A stretch of DNA of 37,733 nt from Amanita rubescens (taxonomy: Eukaryota; Basidiomycota; Agaricomycetes; Agaricales; Amanitaceae), in the NCBI GenBank assembly GCA_015039365.1, contig WION01000517.1:1-37733 (forward strand). Direction: 5' to 3'. The number at the start of each line of letters is the position of its first letter. Position 1 is the stretch's first letter. Below are positions 25,951-34,875 of the stretch, piece after piece. The notes under the pieces are model-generated. The model was not told the DNA's origin. It was given only the letters and a program-made list of their open reading frames with translations, and ran no database searches. The position numbers were made by a program, and so were the translations under genes.

Positions 25951-28900
25951 ATGATGGCAACTGCAACTTCTAGTGCGGGTAGGCCAATTTATGTTTCTCA
26001 GCATGGCTGATCCTTGACATATACCATCAGATGTGGATGAGACATATGTTCAAATGCTCAGGGAGCACTATCTATGCCCACACTTTCGCATTCTTGTCAT
26101 GGGGAGGGCTAATGCAGGCAAGACAACTATCCTTGAGAAGGTTTGTGGTGTAGCAAGGGGGACAAGGCCCATCATATATTATGGTAGTAAGTTGGTCTGA
26201 GTTTTGTGCTTCCTTTGGCTGTTGAGCTTCTTGCAGGTAATCAGCTTGGACAACAGATTCAAATCATGCCATCACTTGAGGTGACTCAGACCAATGTGTA
26301 GATGTACCCATTTACATGCAGTGATAACAGAGAGGCAAACATGATATTGAGCATCAAATTACATACCCTGGAAGTAACTTTATCTTCCATGACTCTCTGG
26401 GTTTTGAATCTGGTTCAACTGAGGAATTGGGGATTACTTGGAAGTTCATTGAAAAGAAGTCTGCAGAAACTGAGCTGAAAAACCAGCTGCATGCAATTTG
26501 GTATCTTGCTTTATCCCATTACAATACTGGCTGACCTGCCTCTAGGTACTGTATACCCATGGATGACCCTCGTCCCATTCTACCTGCTGAACTTGAATTC
26601 TTCAATAAAGGGACAGGCAGAGGCAAGTCCTAATGAATTCATATCTCATCTTGTTGCACTTGCTGGATTAACTATTGTACCTCCTTTCCATTGGCAAACT
26701 TCCCACAAATCTACTAGTACTGACTAGTAAATATTTCCTTTATAGTTCCTTTGGTGGTTATATTCACCAAATTTGATGGTCAAATAGCAAGTGCATTTGT
26801 CAACTTGACTGATACAAACTTGAATGATGAAGATAAGTGGGAGAGAGCCAGGAACATTGCTGAAATCACTTTTCAGCAAGTTTATCTTCCTAAAGTTTTG
26901 GAAGTGAACTATCCTCCCAAGGCATTTGTGCGGTTTGAAGGTGAGAATGATGAGTATTTCTTCTTGAAAATGGGAGTGATGTTCTTTTATAGATCTGGAT
27001 TTACCAGAGAATGATTGTGCTGAATTGACTCAGACAACTGCTGATGTCATAGATAGTGATAGCATGCACCAGCTGTTTATTTCAACACAGATGAATAATC
27101 TTGACCTTTGTGTTAAATCTGCACTTCGGTGAGGGTCAAATTCACAATGTCACTTACTAACATTGACAATGTTCAGACATGTTCTGAAACATCAACATTT
27201 GACATGGGATCATGTCATCATCATAGTTTTTTCAAAATTTCCACATTTCTGGGTATGCATTTTGGTCAAACTGCACATTAGTATAGGAAAAGTTATAATG
27301 TCAATAGGTTGACAGGGAGGTAGGTGGCCTTCATATGGAATGACAAAGACTTGCAAAAAGTTCATCAGGAGGTAAGTAACACTCCACTGCCTTCAAATGA
27401 AAAAAAAAAAACCAGTCATACCTCAGATGTCTAATCAACAACTAAGTGAAACAGAGGTTAGTTGTCACCATATTCTTGCTGGCAGGATCTGATGACATTA
27501 ATATCAGTGGGTGAGTGGCATTGAACTGGCATAGATCTGATATATTTTCTCATGACAACAGTTTGTGAGCAATGTGTCCTTTCACCATCAGCAGTCTTAT
27601 CTCCAATACTCTACAGGAAGTGAGTGACATGACCCAATTTTGATTTTTGGTAAATGAACCTATGGTGACCAACAGCAAGTAAGTTACTCCATCTTTATAA
27701 GCAGACTTGTCAATCCTTCATGGACAGGGAGTGAGTAACACAACACTGCCTCACACCACATCTGACCTGCTTAAAGAAAGTAAGCAACATTGATGTTGCC
27801 CAAGTTCTAGTGACATAATTCAATGAACAATAGAAAGTTGGGTGACTTACTGTTATTTGAAATCAATGCTCAGCAAACTTCATTGTATTAATAACAGGAA
27901 GTAAGTGACATTTCCCTCTGTCTGATTATAAACATTACATCTTGTCCCAAAACAACAGACAGTAAATATCAATATCTCCCCCTCCCAATTTCTCTTGACA
28001 AGCTATTGCAACACAAACAGGATGTATGTGATACTTTTGTGAGATTTGAATTCATCATATGAAATACTATGGCAAAAGAGAGTCAGTGCCATTGTTTTCT
28101 GTATTCCCAACTCATTATGCTAATTTAATTCTTAAAGGAAGTGAGTGTTGCTAGCTGCTCTGCTGCAAGACACTCTGGAGACATTCTCATGTTCTACAGA
28201 TTGTGAGTGATATTGTGAGTACTAAGCAGTGAAATCACATCTTTTCCTATAGAAGGTCGGTGTCATGCCAGCTTGTCTCAAAGATGATCTTTTCAAAAAA
28301 TTTCCTGTGACCTACAGTATGTGAGTAACATTGCAAATATTTCTAGAAAACTACTCTAAGTATTTTTCCCTATTCCTGACAGGATGTGAGTGACAACATT
28401 GAAGATTTTTGTGGATGCAGTCTAATCACATCTTTTCTATGATCAACAGGGAGTGAGTGAAATTGTATACTTTGTCAAAGACAATCTCATCACATCTTTT
28501 CCTACTATGACCAACAGGGAGTGAGTGCTATTGTACATTTTGTGAAAGGCAGTACATATCATCACATCTTTTCCTATGGCCAACAGGGGGTGAGTTGTAT
28601 TGCACATTTTATGAAAAGCAGTCATCACATCAGACCAACAGGGAGTGAGTGACATTGCATACTATGTGAAAGGCAGTCTCATCACATCTTTTCCTATGAC
28701 CAGCAGTTTGTGAGTGGCATTGGGCATCTTATGAAAGGCAATGGGCTCATCACATCCTTTCCTACCAACTTGGAGGTTGTGAGTAATATTGCACATTTGT
28801 GTGAAAGGCAGACTCTTTTCCTATGATCAACAGCGAGTCAGTGACATTGCACAGTTTGTGAAAGCCAGTCTCATCAGATCTTTTCCTATTACCAACAGGG

Positions 28901-30518
28901 AGTGAGTGACATTGCACATTTTGTGAAAGGTAGACCCATCACATCTTTTCCTGTGACCAACAGTTTGTGAGTGACATTGCACATTTTGTGAAAGCCAGTT
29001 TCATGACACCTTTCAATTCCTATGACCAACAGCGAGTCAGTGACATTCAATGTACATTGTGTGATAGCCAGTCTCATCAAACTTTTTCCTATGACCAATA
29101 GCTTGTGAGTGACCAGCACATTTGTGAAAGCCAGTCTCATCACATTTTTCCTATGACCAACAGGGAGTGAGTGACATTGCACATTATATGAAAGGCAGTC
29201 TCATGACCATGTCATCTTTTCCTATGACCAACAGCTTGTGAGTGACATTGCACATTTTGTGAAAAGTGGACTCATCACATCTTTTCCTATCACTGACAGG
29301 AAGTGAGTGATGTTGCACATTTTGTGAAAGGGAGTCCCATCACAGCTTTTCCTATGACCAACAGGAAGTGAGTGATGTTGCACATTTTGTGAAAGGGAGT
29401 CCCATCACATCTTACATACATATATCAGAAAGTGAGCATATTGCCATATCTTTTCCATGTCTTCCTTTTACATTATTATCATCATAGATTGTAAGATTTC
29501 ACTTCAGCCCACCCACTTCCACCTCATGTGATAATTTTGTTGTCATTTATATTACTTCTAGGTAAGTGATGGTGGTTAATGAGGCATTGATTTTCACATT
29601 AGTTTGCATGCTAGTGTGTAGGTTTGATGATACATTGGGTGTTTTACTGTCACACTAATCTCACACTAACTAGGATGAACTTTTCTCCATGTTTGGAGAC
29701 AGGAAACGGCACTTTGCCATCATGGTATTTGATCTTTCCTTTCTGAATGATATGCAACTGATACCATTGCAACAAGCCTACTGGTTGCCAGATCTTAGTT
29801 TGTAAATTATTCCTTTTCATTTACTGTATTTATGCTCAAACTTTGAAGCAATTATTGTCATTGCCAAGCTATCCTTTTGGATCAACAGAGCATTTCTGCC
29901 ATCTGTTACACAAGCCTTGTATCAATACCAGCAAAACTGCTATGCTCAGAAGCTGAAGACTGAAATTACTGCCGAATTTCTGCACCCTGGTTATCAAGAT
30001 ATGGTCACATTACTCTATAGGCAGGTGACTCACATTGATGGTAGGTTCTTTGTATAGTCATGCATTACTTATGAACAATTTATGGCAGGGTGAAACACCT
30101 GGCATTGGATATTCAGGTGATTTATTGGCTGCATTGCATTTGCATTGAGATCATATTTATCTGTACACAGATCACTTCTCATATGCCTCTCTTTTGTTAT
30201 TCATGCATCTGGCTCAATTTTTCTTTTTAATGTAAACATACATATACATATGTCATTGTTGGGAATACATTTGGCAGGGACACAGGTTGGATGCAAGTAA
30301 AAGAATGGCAGCTACATAATTATGAGCCATTAATGGAAATTGTAGGAGTCCATAGTAATAGTAGCTGCTGGCATCCGAGTCCTGATTTGTGCAGATGCTG
30401 TGCCTGTTGCATTAAGTCAAAGTCCATTGGAAAACCTCTCAGCCCTTGTCACCTGCCCTCTCTGGACTTCCCACCATCCTTGCCTAACATTTCCTCAGAT
30501 GTTTGCATGTGCCAATGA
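25951..30518 (+). CDS. Agaricomycete-type P-loop GTPase with ~50 exons, 35 of them 3 nt
   Basis: Ordinary exons: 25951-25978, 26031-26186, 26237-26280, 26331-26500, 26546-26622, 26746-26940, 26993-27128, 27177-27252, 27308-27319 and 27427-27456. The later ones are 29674-29724, 29869-30024, 30089-30116, 30171-30231 and 30278-30518. Between them lie 3-nt exons, listed separately. The model gives 521 aa with every phase agreeing. G1 is FRILVMGRANAGKTTIL. Next come PSLERGKHDIEHQ across an intron, G3 IFHDSLGFESGSTEEL, LHAIWYCIPMDDPRPI, and G4 VPLVVIFTKFD. LFISTQMNNLDLCVKSAL closes the G domain. Later exons give FGDRKRHFAIM, INRAFLPSVTQAL, a hydrophobic helix (YASLLLFMHLAQFFFLM) and a Cys-rich tail (CRCCACC). 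This is the AIG1/50S-binding-GTPase-like family expanded in Agaricomycetes; its role is unknown. The region is AT-richer than its neighbours. Confidence 0.8.
26623..26745 (+). other. GC-AG intron in the GTPase gene
   Basis: The exon ends CAGAG and the intron begins GCAAGT, the typical strong context of non-canonical GC donors; it ends TTTATAG. Splicing joins G to TT to give the conserved VPLVVIFTKFD start of the G4 strand. It is 123 nt, longer than the other introns upstream of the triplet array. Confidence 0.7.
27369..29490 (+). other. Array of 34 three-nucleotide exons, AG|NNN|GT
   Basis: Triplet and first base: GAG 27369, TGG 27508, TTT 27562, GAA 27617, CAA 27676, GGA 27728, AAA 27777, AAA 27834, GAA 27898, ACA 27959, GAT 28021, AGA 28079; GAA 28138, ATT 28200, AAG 28253, TAT 28318, GAT 28383, GGA 28450, GGA 28518, GGG 28587, GGA 28642, TTT 28707; GTT 28776, CGA 28834, GGA 28899, TTT 28964, CGA 29033, CTT 29102, GGA 29164, CTT 29235, GAA 29300, GAA 29365, AAA 29429, ATT 29488. 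A 35th (TTT 29799) follows an ordinary 51-nt exon. Every triplet follows AG and precedes GT, mostly GTGAGT or GTAAGT. The introns from 27511 to 29561 are 46-71 nt and many have TGAC-type branch sites. A 30-nt exon (27427-27456) lies between the first and second triplets. Phase is 0 and there is no stop codon. AAA 27834 has the weakest donor (GTTGGG). Confidence 0.75.
28386..29428 (+). repeat. Tandem ~65-bp intron-like repeats
   Basis: About 16 direct units, each a whole intron. They start GTGAGTGACATTGCACA, pass through TTTTGTGAAAGGCAGTC and CATCACATCTTTTCC, and end TATGACCAACAG. Units are 55-71 bp including the triplet. The similarity fades upstream: introns at 27511-28320 share only splice signals and size. 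CGA is followed by the variant donor GTCAGT both times it occurs. Confidence 0.9.
29560..29563 (+). other. Zero-length AG|GTAAGT junction (candidate recursive splice site)
   Basis: TTACTTCTAG is joined directly to GTAAGTGATGG at 29561/29562: a good acceptor abutting a good donor with no exon between. It divides the 183-nt intervening sequence between ATT (29488) and the exon at 29674 into 71 and 112 nt. In animals such ratchet sites mediate recursive splicing; here the role is inference. Confidence 0.5.
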
Positions 30519-31108
30519 AACAAGCTCCAAATCTTGATACATCAGTAGGATGTACTGTATGTATAGTATTTTGAAATATTCTTCTTGACCTATGTACATG
30601 TGTCTGGTCAGGATTGCCTCTGCTGTACTATGAATGCAAGTTGAGTTAGATTTGAAGGACAGTTATGCTCCCTACACACTTCACTTCTTGGTGACACTTA
30701 CATTTGATGACAAGTCATCTGCCTGGACATGTATCTTAACATTAATACTTACTGTGCTAGGGCAGGAAGTGGGCCACCTAAGCAAGGCTGGTGATTGTTT
30801 TCAGTAGATCAAAGCTTTTATAAGATCTAATGGGCTAGGATCGCAGACAAGTATCCTAGGAGGATGGCATATTGTAGGCGTGATTTTAGAGAATGTTGTT
30901 GTTGCGGTACGAATATTTTCGCACGGCGGCTACCAAAACGGGAAAGTCGGTGATCTGGGCCATGCGTGAGAACCATCCCTGTTGGCCGCCGCCCCAACTT
31001 TGCCGTGCTAATCTGAACGATCTAGAGCAGCTTTGCGCTTCAAATTTTGGATTCACATTAAGAGGTGTGTGATCTACTGTTAACTTAAACTTTTGTTGTA
31101 TCTGACCA
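30519..31108. other. 3' flank of the GTPase gene and 3' flank of the transposase
   Basis: AT-rich to about 30840, then returning to the composition of the rest of the window. No gene is recognised, and no terminal inverted repeat of the transposon could be recognised by eye. Confidence 0.4.
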
Positions 31109-33672
31109 TCATTTGCGCCTAGGATTTCGACGTCTTGGAGGATCTACCCGGGTCTCAATCTCAGTGGACTGCACCATCAATCGCGCCTCAAGACTTCTGC
31201 TCTCTGCCTCTAAATCATCCTCCAAGACCCTGGGTACAAAATTAATGCGAGACTTGGGACTTGCAGCTTGTTCTCGTGTGTCCTCTTGCAAAACTTCAGG
31301 CTCATTCTGACATCCAACTTCGGCATCTACAATATGTGAAATCTCAGCTCCTCCATCATCTCCAGTCTCAAGCGGAGGTGAGCGCATATGTGGGAGTGGT
31401 CGTGGGCGTGGGCGAGGTTGTGTACGTTGACTTCTTTCCTGCTCGGCACCAGCCTCCTCACACCATCCTTGAATCACCCGAACAGGACGTTGTCGGCGTG
31501 ATCTGGGGATAAGAACCTCTGCGTCACTCTCAGAATCGGAGTCAGAGCTGGTTTCTGACGACTCAGGTGTCCCCGATGACTCCCGGCCCCGATCTGAATC
31601 ATCTATTTGCGTGCTGGCACCGCCCACCATGTCTGCGCCTCTGCCTCTCGTGCTCCTCCCTCTGCCTCTGCCTCCACCTCTGCCTCCACCTCTATTACCT
31701 CTAACACGACCACGAGCCCTTGCTGCCTTTTCTGCAGCCACAGCCGCCTTCTTTGCCTCACGCTCAGCCTTCTTTGACGCGCGCTCGGCCACCTGCTTCG
31801 CTTTCTCAATCTGCTTGTGATAGTCAAGAATGCTCTTCTTTAGGACTTTGAATCGTGGTGCCGCCTCTTTAAACACATCTTTCATCCGACTCTCCCAGTC
31901 CTGTCGAGCAAGTAAATCCAGGTTTTCAGCAGCTGTCATATGTCGTGCCTGTCCTGAGCTTCGTTTGTTCTTCTGGGCTTTTCGCTTTTCCTTTTCGAAT
32001 GCTCACTTTCTCAGTCTCTCATTCTCCAGGTCCATAAGCTTCATCTGTGCATAATCCTCCTCCAGAGCAATACCTGCTTGGACAATAATGTCTCGCAGCA
32101 TCATATTCTCGGCCCTAAGTGATTGCCGAGACGCAGTACCTGGAAGCGGAGGTGGAACTTCAATGTGATATCGTTCCATTGGCTCCTCGTCGTCGTCTGA
32201 TGATTCTTCAACAGGTGTTGTCTCATACATTACAGCATCGTGTTGAAGTGTAGCTGTTGCTGCTGCTGATGGAGTTGGGGTTGGGGTTGGAGTTGGGTTG
32301 GGCGTTGGCGCTAGGATAGAAGGGAGACGTGCAGGAAGGGGCTGCGAAGCCTGTGTAGTTGTAGTCTTTGATGGCTCAAAGGCTGAAAGAGGGATTGCAT
32401 GACGATCCAATGGCCAAATTCCTGTTTTTCGGAAGGCCAATTGAATAGTTGTAGTCTTCAATGCATTAATACGTGCGGCATGGTAATAAACTAATAGATT
32501 ATCTTTTCTGATTGCGATAAGAGATTGGGATGCAAGTGTCACCTCTCGCTTCCATGACTGTGCGAGAGGCCCGAAAGCACCAACATCACATGGCTGAAGG
32601 GCATGCGTTGTGTGCGAGGGAAGACATATGATAATTATCTTGTTATCTGCAGCATACTTGCAGAATGTGAATGTGCAGTGCGAGTTATGGCCATCCAAGA
32701 TCAACAGGCGATACTGTCCCACAGCGGCCTTGTCTCGTGTTGCAGGATCGAAATCATTCCGAAGCCATGCAGCGCCCAGCTCTTGGTCAGTCCAGCCATT
32801 CGGAGAGATGGATATGCTGTTCAAATTGGTAAGATTGATCATCCGTACTTCAATATGATTAATGATGCAAACCTCGCATTACAGGGATTGTTACGACCCC
32901 ACTCTGAGTTTCGTCTCTGACCCTGGAATATCACAGAAGGGTGAAGAACAGATCCATCAGCACAGATGGTCTCAATAACTGTGACGAGCTCCCTGTTTCC
33001 ATCTTCAATTGAATAAACAGTTTGTTGATTGCGATCGATCATGGCAGTGATTCTCGCACCAATCCCAAGTTGAAGACCCTTTTCATCCATATTATATAGA
33101 TTCTCAGGTAGAATATTAAATTCCTTCATTACATCAGTGAGCATATCAAAGAACTCATTGACGGCAAATTGATTCAGCGCTTTTGCACGTGCTTTCTCCA
33201 AGCCTGTCGTCCTCTTCATCTTTAAACTGGGATGACGCTTGCAGAAGCGTTTTGGCCATGATTTCCCGGTCTGCTTGCCAGAAATTGCATCGGCGCACTG
33301 TGTGACAGAAGCGTATGTCATAGGTATACCACGACGGCCTTGAATTTTAACCCATTTGGCTAAGATCTCCTCCTGGGCTTCAGTGAGGAGTTGTTCACCA
33401 ACATGTGCCTCGCAACAGCTCTTCCCTCCTAGAAAATCACTTAGCAACACGAAATCACCATACACAATGCCACACATACCTTGCAAACGGCGGCCAAGGG
33501 AAGATCTTGGAATACTAAAATCCCGTTCTGCTTGACGTGCAGAGTAGTGTGGGTTGCCATTGGGTTTTGTACCTGAGTTCTGAATCATAGCTACAGCCAG
33601 TTGGATGCGTTCCTCTCGTGGGTGAGTAAGAATATCGTCAGGAATTGAGATATCTGGCCTTAAAGGTGGCAT
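31109..33672 (-). CDS. pogo/Fot1-like DDE transposase
   Basis: Exons on the minus strand: 33672-33480, 33428-32873, 32816-32007 and possibly 31958-31109, up to 802 aa. The N-terminus has a psq/CENP-B-type helix-turn-helix (YSARQAERDFSIPRSSLGRR) and a second DNA-binding part (WPKRFCKRHPSLKMKRT). The DDE_1 catalytic residues are seen at NMDEKG, LILDGHNSH and PCDVGAFGP. The second and third Asp are 35 residues apart (DD35D). The C-terminus is low complexity: PTPTP repeats, a coiled coil, and an RGRG-rich tract. At 32003-32005 a TGA interrupts the frame, although the same frame continues (AFEKEKRKAQKNKRSSGQARH). Either the TGA is a nonsense mutation or it is removed with a 48-nt GTGAGC...CGAAG intron. 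Confidence 0.85.
31109..33672 (-). mobile_element. pogo/Fot1-type DNA transposon (ends not identified)
   Basis: The transposase gene marks a Tc1/mariner-superfamily element of the pogo/Fot1 branch. Terminal inverted repeats and TA target duplications could not be found by eye, so only the coding part is delimited. It sits between the GTPase gene and the TRL1/HNH region. Confidence 0.6.
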
Positions 33673-34612
33673 TTTGGATGGTATGGCTTAAGTTTAGTGT
33701 GGGCTGGGATTGCGACTGGGCATCGCTCACTCGTGACTTAAATACAGTACCACAGAGTTGGAAACGGTTAAAGCATTGATATATTGGCACAGTCTAGGTA
33801 CGGGACATAAGGTGGGCAGGTGGATAAATATCGGCATTGGTGCAATGTTCTGCAGGTAGGATAACATCAGGATGGCTCAAACAATTAAAAAGAGCCCTAA
33901 TCCACGCACCTGCAGTGAGACGTCGACATCCCTGCACCTCCAATTCCCATAACGATTTCCATCAGCTAACATGCTGAAAAAGCGCATACAAGTGTAACGG
34001 AGTCCACAAAGGCATGAATAAATTTGCTAAAAATATAATCACTGCTGTTCACGAAACATTGAGTTAATATGAAGATAATTACCAAAGGTCATAAACGCAC
34101 CTCATTATCTGAAGCCGACATGCGTCAATCAAGGGAGCCCATCCAAAATGAAAAACAAGGCAGGCCACGACAATTGGATGAGGAAAACCGGCCAGTAGGC
34201 GTGGAATTATACAGAAGGGATGATTGGAGGGAAGCGAATGGGTGAGACAATTGTAGATACGAAGGTTTGGAAAGATTCGGTTTAGAATTGCGTCATCAGG
34301 GCAGCGGCTGCCGGATTTGGTAATGCCATTGATCTTACCAAATTAGGCAAATTCTCGCTTCGGCAACATTAACCGGCCTATTACTCAGCAAGGAATCGCT
34401 GCAACCGTCCAAGGAGCTGTTCAAGGCAACACTCGATATAGTTCTTGTCATTCATCCCAACACAACAGGTTTTGGTACTCTACGGGGCTCATAAATTACA
34501 GAGTGGCCTGCTACACAGGGTGGCCCACTTCCTGACCCAGCACAGTATTGAACATACAAAATTATTACTATTTTATGTTAGTACAGGATCCATGACAGGG
34601 TGCCAACTTGTT
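33673..34612. other. Intergenic between transposase and TRL1 3'-end copy
   Basis: No gene recognised; includes the transposase promoter. Nothing coding stands out on either strand. Confidence 0.4.
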
Positions 34613-34875
34613 AATGCTAGATACATGAGTGTCAATGCATCTCAAGATGAACAACCACTAAACCCACTTCCCACTTATCCTTGCCTTGACTGTAATTCTA
34701 TTAGGACCCAGATCCAGCACCCTTGGTGCCTTGTTCTTCTCCCCCTTCCTCCGACCCATGACGAGCACCTTTGCCTCAAGAGGCACAATCCCTACATCCT
34801 TCATTCCAACTGTAATGTGTAACCGCTCCCATTCCTCATCCAACTCCTTCACAAACTTTTTCACAAGCTTATATG
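34613..34875 (-). pseudogene. Second copy of the TRL1 3' end (about 70 codons plus 3' UTR)
   Basis: The minus strand encodes KKFVKELDEEWERLHITVG, then MKDVGIVPLEAKVLVMG and ITVKARISGKWV-stop. This aligns codon by codon with the end of TRL1 (KEFVKELPDEERERLHITVG...ISGMWS). Similarity starts in the 3' UTR (AATGCTAG, 34613 against 36595) and stops abruptly after GCTTATATG (34875 against 36853). The frame is undamaged and the second HxT motif (HIT) is kept, but there is no upstream coding part. It is either the displaced original 3' end or a duplicate. Confidence 0.85.

Follow-up and report, generated by a model that had tools for sequence, protein, structure and literature searches.

Can a protein-coding gene be divided, dozens of times in succession, into exons of a single codon each? 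The question is raised by a contig of the Amanita rubescens genome assembly (75.7 Mb in 786 contigs), WION01000517.1, labelled C459 here and referred to as the window, with a length of 37,733 nucleotides (nt). A GTPase-like gene on its plus strand contains, between the GTPase-like part and a C-terminal part, an array of three-base segments that each lie between an AG and a GT. We predict that the 35 AG|NNN|GT triplets at 27369–29617 are single-codon exons, very likely spliced into the mRNA of this gene, where they would form a linker evolving residue by residue. Exons of this kind had been proposed in a first-pass annotation made without database searches; the observation was confirmed and its interpretation is supported as essentially right, and the array is a trait of a gene family, wider than had been supposed.

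The triplet array in the window

All 34 triplets annotated at 27369–29490 are present at those positions, and no triplet in the window is a stop. An additional one, TGT at 29615–29617, brings the total to 35, each preceded by NAG and followed by GT, and as predicted internal exons between standard splice sites they fall within the size of microexons (up to about 30 nt). The 34 had been taken as one run, and the count stands but not the extent: the unbroken stretch, also of 34 triplets, is 27508–29617 and is preceded by a lone triplet at 27369. Between the exon ending in KFPHFW and this stretch lie two longer exons, one of 12 nt, VDRE (27308–27319), and one of 30 nt, MSNQQLSETE (27427–27456). 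Introns within the run are 46–68 nt long, except for the last one of 124 nt. Those in 28425–29413 are mutually similar, with a tandem period of about 65 nt, whereas those 5' of there are hardly alike.

Chains of successive AG-3 nt-GT steps with introns of 44–72 nt were compared with dinucleotide shuffles. The longest chain in 27253–29650 had 33 steps, against at most 5 in 500 shuffles, and same-size pieces elsewhere in the window (n = 13) reached at most 3. As the first-pass annotation had noted, the 5' introns are unlike one another and yet the 3-nt gap is constant: a chain of 15 runs through 27253–28385 (at most 5 in 2,000 shuffles). When spacings of 0–12 nt were scanned, chains longer than 2 appeared only for 3 nt (33) and 7 nt (22), the latter being an echo of the former from the second GT in GTGAGT. 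An exon parser with author-set splice weights, in which exon lengths of 1–60 nt were equally favoured, called 3-nt exons more often than those of any other length in 12 of 12 arrays (433 of 564 exons), versus 31 of 362 exons on reversed sequence.

Triplets spell residues of contiguous homologous proteins

Twenty paralogous loci were fetched by place, and two more, L033 and a locus on contig C8, were picked afterwards. The single-codon exons of L033 spell DWFESADNAAAKERQYYDDGVHAGYGYYGGEKISEKERDKRKDFVEREIL, and the counterpart in the homologous protein P0049 is DWFESADDAAGKEREYYDDGIHSGGYGYYGGKKISEKERDHRRDFVEREIL. After removal of a leading triplet (a stop set in front by the parser) as a misparse, 42 of 50 aligned residues were identical with one gap, and the score was 231, whereas scores after 2,000 reshufflings of triplet order did not exceed 65. 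The introns of L033 are mutually as unlike as shuffled ones (mean score 0.009 vs. −0.081; 0.95 in another array, L025). P0049 is a 478-residue open frame on a 1,486-nt JGI contig, and its matches to this divergent paralog, on contig C1, are spread over 29740–34729, about 5 kb. We infer that this contig represents either spliced RNA or an intron-less relative, with RNA favoured.

An alignment of the window gene with contiguous homologs had been suggested as a check, and its first 18 triplet residues do match P0046 and P0003: EWFEQGKKETDREIKYDG resembles QWFEHGKKDTDKQIVYDG in P0046 and KWFEKGKKESDREIEYDG in P0003 and beat all 300 order-shuffles. All 11 arrays tried beat their order-shuffles against these two proteins. 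The two short exons near the start of the run were revealed because P0046 and P0003 match there. In the gene model, VDRE compares with VGRD/VDRA after PHFW/PHLW and MSNQQLSETE with MANKQLSEAQ/TNEQLSETK, and the first single-codon exon, GAG (E) at 27369–27371, has E or V at the equivalent place.

In a structural model of P0049 (mean predicted local distance difference test score, pLDDT, 72), the array segment lies between the GTPase part and the C-terminal helices, and residues 314–361, which make up most of it, have pLDDT below 50, as would a flexible linker.

Frame and codon constraints on the triplets

Among 621 triplets of 11 arrays there were no stops, whereas 43 were expected from the base composition at each codon position. 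The count took one copy from each set of near-identical arrays, so that L011 and L019 dropped out, and L021 and L026 were omitted as disturbed; with the latter two added, the count was 8 in 723 vs. 54 expected. Genome-wide, CAG-CRA occurs 379 times before one 14-base intron start and CAG-TRA once, in C537, the contig of L021.

Exon length was profiled in the context CCAACAG-gap-GTGAGTGACATTGCAC across the whole genome for gaps of 1–9 nt. The gap was 3 nt in 865 places. Gaps of 1–2 nt numbered 16, all within C749 (the contig of L026) and C13, and gaps of 4–9 nt numbered 15, i.e., nine of 6 nt and six of 4 nt (four of these in C749 and C13), with none of 5, 7, 8, or 9 nt in this context genome-wide. 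The nine 6-nt exons (e.g., CTTCAA, CAATAT) stand in array context on C1, C35, C61, C184, C190, C197, and C229; they would give two codons, as from precise intron loss or a pair not yet split.

In L026 (G000:C749) and at G000:C13:581777–584804, exons of 1, 2, and 4 nt lie amid near-perfect introns. These are apparently decayed copies that serve as a natural control for frame constraint, and they probably show the array once the frame is no longer kept.

Codon choice is also biased. Among two-fold T/C codons, C is the final base in 1 of 144 cases in the arrays, compared with 20 of 69 in the window gene's long exons (p = 3e-10), and the corresponding fractions for NAG codons are 25 of 208 and 24 of 50 (p = 1e-7). 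A NAG codon would present a second acceptor. Avoidance of both is expected if the donor directly follows the third base and the codon must be kept. A branch-point scan gave hits near the 3' end in 21 of 46 introns of L033 vs. 9 of 46 near the 5' end, and in the 5' part of the window in 8 of 15 vs. 4 of 15, a modest excess.

These data bear on whether the arrays are mostly relics, that is, a formerly spliced region that is now non-coding in most copies. Such decay is seen in the 1-, 2-, and 4-nt exons of L026 and C13, the stops of L011 and L021, and a changed acceptor in L019. Beyond C749 and C13, however, the fixed context yields just two 4-nt exons and no exon of 1–2 nt, and the 11 arrays lack stops altogether, which makes this explanation very unlikely for the family at large.

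Slightly less probable still is a tandem (mini)satellite within one large intron, with AG|NNN|GT as part of the repeat unit and none of it in the mRNA. The 3' part of the window array is indeed a 65-nt tandem repeat, and L025 is almost perfectly periodic, but similarity among the first 15 introns of the window array, and among those of L033, scarcely exceeds that of shuffled sequences, and the 3-nt gap still holds. The triplets of L033 that spell P0049 speak strongly against a satellite; the near-absence of stops and the gaps of mostly 3, then 6 nt also weigh against it. The first-pass annotation had judged a simple satellite inadequate from the unlike introns; the homolog match and the stop counts lead to the same judgement. 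Single-codon exons in phase 0, as it had proposed, are preferred because this is the only reading considered that covers the L033/P0049 match, the lack of stops, the gap lengths, and the near-exclusion of C-ending codons together.

A gene family that carries the array

The protein nearest to the window gene is a hypothetical protein of Amanita rubescens (97%), and contig C89 has a copy of the gene that is identical over the array. The family is large, with 40 scored DNA matches for one exon out of 195 candidates; a tblastn search of the assembly with P0049 gave 235 matches (several per gene), and the C-terminal part was found in 149 places. All 20 fetched loci show a triplet run, opening like E..WFEQGKKETDREI, and L033 and the C8 locus likewise carry the array. 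L009, L010, and L011 are near-identical to the gene in the window, and there are further groups of near-identical copies among the rest. With L012 set aside, the called chains contain between 35 and 90 triplets, and several fetched arrays extend beyond the end of the stretch taken. L012 has just 12 triplets followed by about 1 kb of other DNA.

The split in L012 (G000:C3) falls after array position 759. A distance of 13–17 kb separates the GTPase place from the nearest C-terminal one in C3, C456, and C97, perhaps due to insertions. At G000:C8:76400–80520, a locus examined as a case without a known neighbour, the array belongs to the same gene family, and much of it is in 56-nt instead of 65-nt units. 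A search for near-identical introns (up to 3 mismatches) gave 2,107 places, with the first 100 listed and most left without assignment to a gene.

No array-free copy was found among the 91 GTPase-exon places listed: 71 were paired with a C-terminal match and none of these was closer than 2.1 kb, where pairing meant the nearest C-terminal match downstream within 25 kb on the same contig and strand, which is not proof of one gene. The other 20 were unpaired, including the window, whose C-terminal exon is outside the list of C-terminal matches.

The translation of the window gene contains the P-loop GTPase motifs GRANAGKT, DSLG, and TKFD, which we take to be G1, G3, and G4, and several of its homologs carry PF01926 in precomputed domain assignments. 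For P0049, P0001, and the window protein, no Pfam family was detected at E ≤ 0.001. A Foldseek search with the P0049 model gave GM4951 and p47 GTPases such as IIGP1 as best matches (E 3e-5 to 8e-5, TM 0.33–0.34). This modelled likeness to immunity-related GTPases is weak and serves as no more than a lead.

Evolution of the intron-codon units

Over the first 14 units of 11 paralogs, intron cores differ by 0.188 per site, gaps occupy 11% of alignment columns, and intron lengths range from 45 to 142 nt, whereas the triplets differ by 0.106 per site at constant length. Of the substitutions seen in eight comparisons of near-identical copies (L018/L019 over 2,500 nt only; window/L010 without any difference), 80 fall in introns, 4 affect splice signals, and 3 affect triplets; among the last is a stop in L011 (G000:C151), where CGA of a gene near-identical to that of the window has become TGA. 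No indel was placed in a triplet, and two were placed in splice signals between L023 and L025, where the alignment slips by one 65-nt unit. Steady hypermutation of triplets was rejected, as only these 3 triplet differences occur over the eight comparisons.

Nearly all units of L025 (67 of 69) have a length of exactly 65 nt, and the diversity per site in this array is 0.016 in introns and 0.58–0.68 in triplets. It holds a duplicated 18-unit block, marked by five rare intron variants that both copies share, in which 5 of 18 codons (11 of 54 nt) have changed, three at every base, vs. 3 of 1,119 intron bases. On this sequence pattern, the block may be read as whole-codon swapping by conversion between near-identical introns; the alternative is strong selection for change. 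L025 also has one CGA unit beyond L023. Between proteins P0044 and P0047, the flanking residues are identical at 287 of 302 and 82 of 87 positions (95% and 94%), and the array-homologous segment at 31 of 53, with 21 gap columns. Higher-order codon repeats in 9 arrays were at most weakly above shuffles. Whole codons have likely been added, lost, and swapped in the arrays.

A proposed route from array to protein

In the proposed mechanism, the 46–68-nt introns would be spliced out through intron definition, probably starting at the 5' end, each splicing event adding one residue. Short introns like these are, in fungi, normally defined as units across their own length, and such recognition would lessen the clash between factors on the two sides of a 3-nt exon. 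Splicing in 5'-to-3' order would be plausible. The product, E and then, after the 30-nt exon, WFEQGKKETDREIKYDGGGGFVRGFRLGLEEKIC, would join the GTPase-like part to the C-terminal helical part. Near-complete splicing would be needed, since most introns are harmful if retained: 29 of 32 in the window (up to 95 nt) and 40 of 46 in L033 would cause a stop or a frame shift.

Near-identical introns may allow unequal crossing-over or gene conversion, by which the intron-plus-codon unit of about 65 bp would be gained, lost, or exchanged. Because each exon consists of a single phase-0 codon, this would leave the frame intact, and the array is thus likely a linker whose evolution proceeds residue by residue. 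Divergent introns would accompany conserved codons (the 5' part of the window, L033), and homogenised introns would accompany variable codons (the 3' part of the window, L025). More tentatively, and at somewhat under even chances, the family may write a protein segment at one residue per exon and revise it by one residue with each recombination event, near-identical introns acting as the substrate on which exons are shuffled codon by codon. Expressed, hypervariable linkers of 35 to 90 or more residues would result, possibly with isoforms, because any skipped exon preserves the frame.

Sequential use of sites would also suit stepwise excision of the array as one long intron via ratchet points (recursive splicing, stwintrons), with the triplets lost or joined only transiently and acceptor and donor nearly back to back as in recursive sites. 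That is as improbable as the satellite: recursive sites are typically zero-nucleotide AG|GU within very long introns, according to a review (PMC13149111), whereas three bases separate AG and GT here, and the triplets correspond to residues of contiguous homologs and avoid stops.

Several observations weigh against single-codon exons that encode a residue-by-residue linker. The length-neutral parser calls just 20 of 33 exons as 3 nt in the window itself. The match of L033 to P0049 leaves one P0049 residue without a counterpart, and the triplet spacing of L033 is uneven, with intervals of 131, 121, and 101 nt and the gap at the 121-nt one; the cDNA nature of the JGI contigs is judged from their size. 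P0046 and P0003 match the window array over the first 18–19 residues only and differ afterwards, where P0003 may lose its frame, and against a more distant protein, P0020, 3 of 11 arrays exceed shuffles. Used as a protein query, the array plus C-terminal region of the window recovered no protein at E ≤ 0.01, and the same region of P0049 only P0049 itself and P0044. Stops were called in L011 (1), L019 (2, one of which is a misparse at the changed acceptor), L021 (2, one clear), and L026 (6, from 2-nt exons). Differences in the first 14 codons comprise 184 non-synonymous and 18 synonymous pairs, so that codon conservation is moderate. Codons are not fast-changing in near-identical copies, and with 0 of 183 nt differing between L014 and L015, diversification is not steady. 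The block duplication of L025 stands single, with no second one found above threshold in the other 10 arrays.

Comparison with known small exons

The predicted array would be an extreme form of microexon gene, with a denser exon layout than any we found described. Micro-exon genes (MEGs) of Schistosoma mansoni have 10–20 exons of 6–81 bp (3–81 in the abstract) and introns of 0.1–5 kb, and encode secreted proteins (PMC10526429). Like the Amanita genes, they form a family in which numerous very short exons follow one another (in MEGs mostly divisible by three in length; PMC10526429), annotation is hard, and the product is variable. The Amanita array differs in its exon number of about 35 to 90 or more, a uniform exon length of exactly 3 nt, introns of about 60 nt, and the GTPase-like gene around it. 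The window array thus lies outside the schistosome type of 10–20 exons of 6–81 bp with long introns. Tiny exons between normal splice sites are also described as a 1-nt exon in Arabidopsis APC11 (PMC4674806), a 3-bp exon in Drosophila homothorax (PMC7392893), and a pair of 5 and 12 nt in plants (PMC8831610); as described, these occur alone or in twos, those of Amanita in runs.

Consecutive microexons, one of them of 3 bp, form a cluster in RPS24, which has only three (3, 18, and 22 bp, alternatively spliced; PMC11162997). Mini-exons of 1–3 bp in fungal mitochondrial genes share the size of 1 or 3 bases and the fungal host, but they lie between group I/II introns and are single cases without a run (PMC12308204). 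Introner-like elements are near-identical spliceosomal introns with many copies per fungal genome in unrelated genes (PMC4457414); near-identical introns in many copies occur in Amanita too, but the examined copies are in tandem, in one gene family and one codon apart.

Judged by title and abstract start, the open-licence PMC literature, a scope that excludes preprints and subscription papers, yielded no description of one-codon exons in runs of dozens, and no paper on Amanita microexons was found in it. If RNA confirms the array, a fungal spliceosome would be shown able to handle, in a single transcript, dozens of successive exons much smaller than usual. This would bear on minimum exon size and on sequential intron definition, and would be exon shuffling at its limit, in which intron recombination alters a protein by whole residues with the frame unshifted.

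Gene model and neighbouring sequences

The GTPase-like part, identified by the motifs in its translation and by homologs, occupies 26030–27252 in seven exons, 26030 (start not determined)–26183, 26237–26295, 26331–26500, 26546–26622, 26746–26940, 26993–27128, and 27177–27252, and ends ...KFPHFW in phase 0. From the triplet calls, gene model, and chain test, the exons of the unbroken run start at 27508, 27562, 27617, 27676, 27728, 27777, 27834, 27898, 27959, 28021, 28079, 28138, 28200, 28253, 28318, 28383, and 28450 in its first half, and at 28518, 28587, 28642, 28707, 28776, 28834, 28899, 28964, 29033, 29102, 29164, 29235, 29300, 29365, 29429, 29488, and 29615 in its second half.

The downstream exon DELFSMFGDRKRHFAIM (29674–29724) was aligned by eye with PELFSVFGEHSTFFSAT of P0044. 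It is followed by a 25-nt exon (29777–29801) encoding PTGCQILV(S), aligned by eye with ATECQLVVA of P0049; TTT at 29799, which had been annotated as a further triplet exon, is the tail of this exon. The final exon of the model, ...IIVIAKLSFWINRAFLPSVTQAL...HIDGRFFV (29849–30057, stop TAG at 30055–30057), matches C-terminal exons in paralogs, and a further intron may precede the true gene end. The annotated protein of an identical gene copy (P0001, 269 residues) covers 66% of the first spliced prediction, and about a third of the product would thus be absent from the annotation.

Elsewhere in the window, about six copies of a 129-bp repeat lie on the plus strand at 1–768, presumably of WD40 type as judged from the GHTDSVTSVAFSPDG pattern. 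About 2 kb downstream of the gene, on the minus strand at 32003–33687, two overlapping frames match HTH_psq, HTH_Tnp_Tc5, and DDE_1; we take them to be a pogo/Tigger-like transposase split over two frames.

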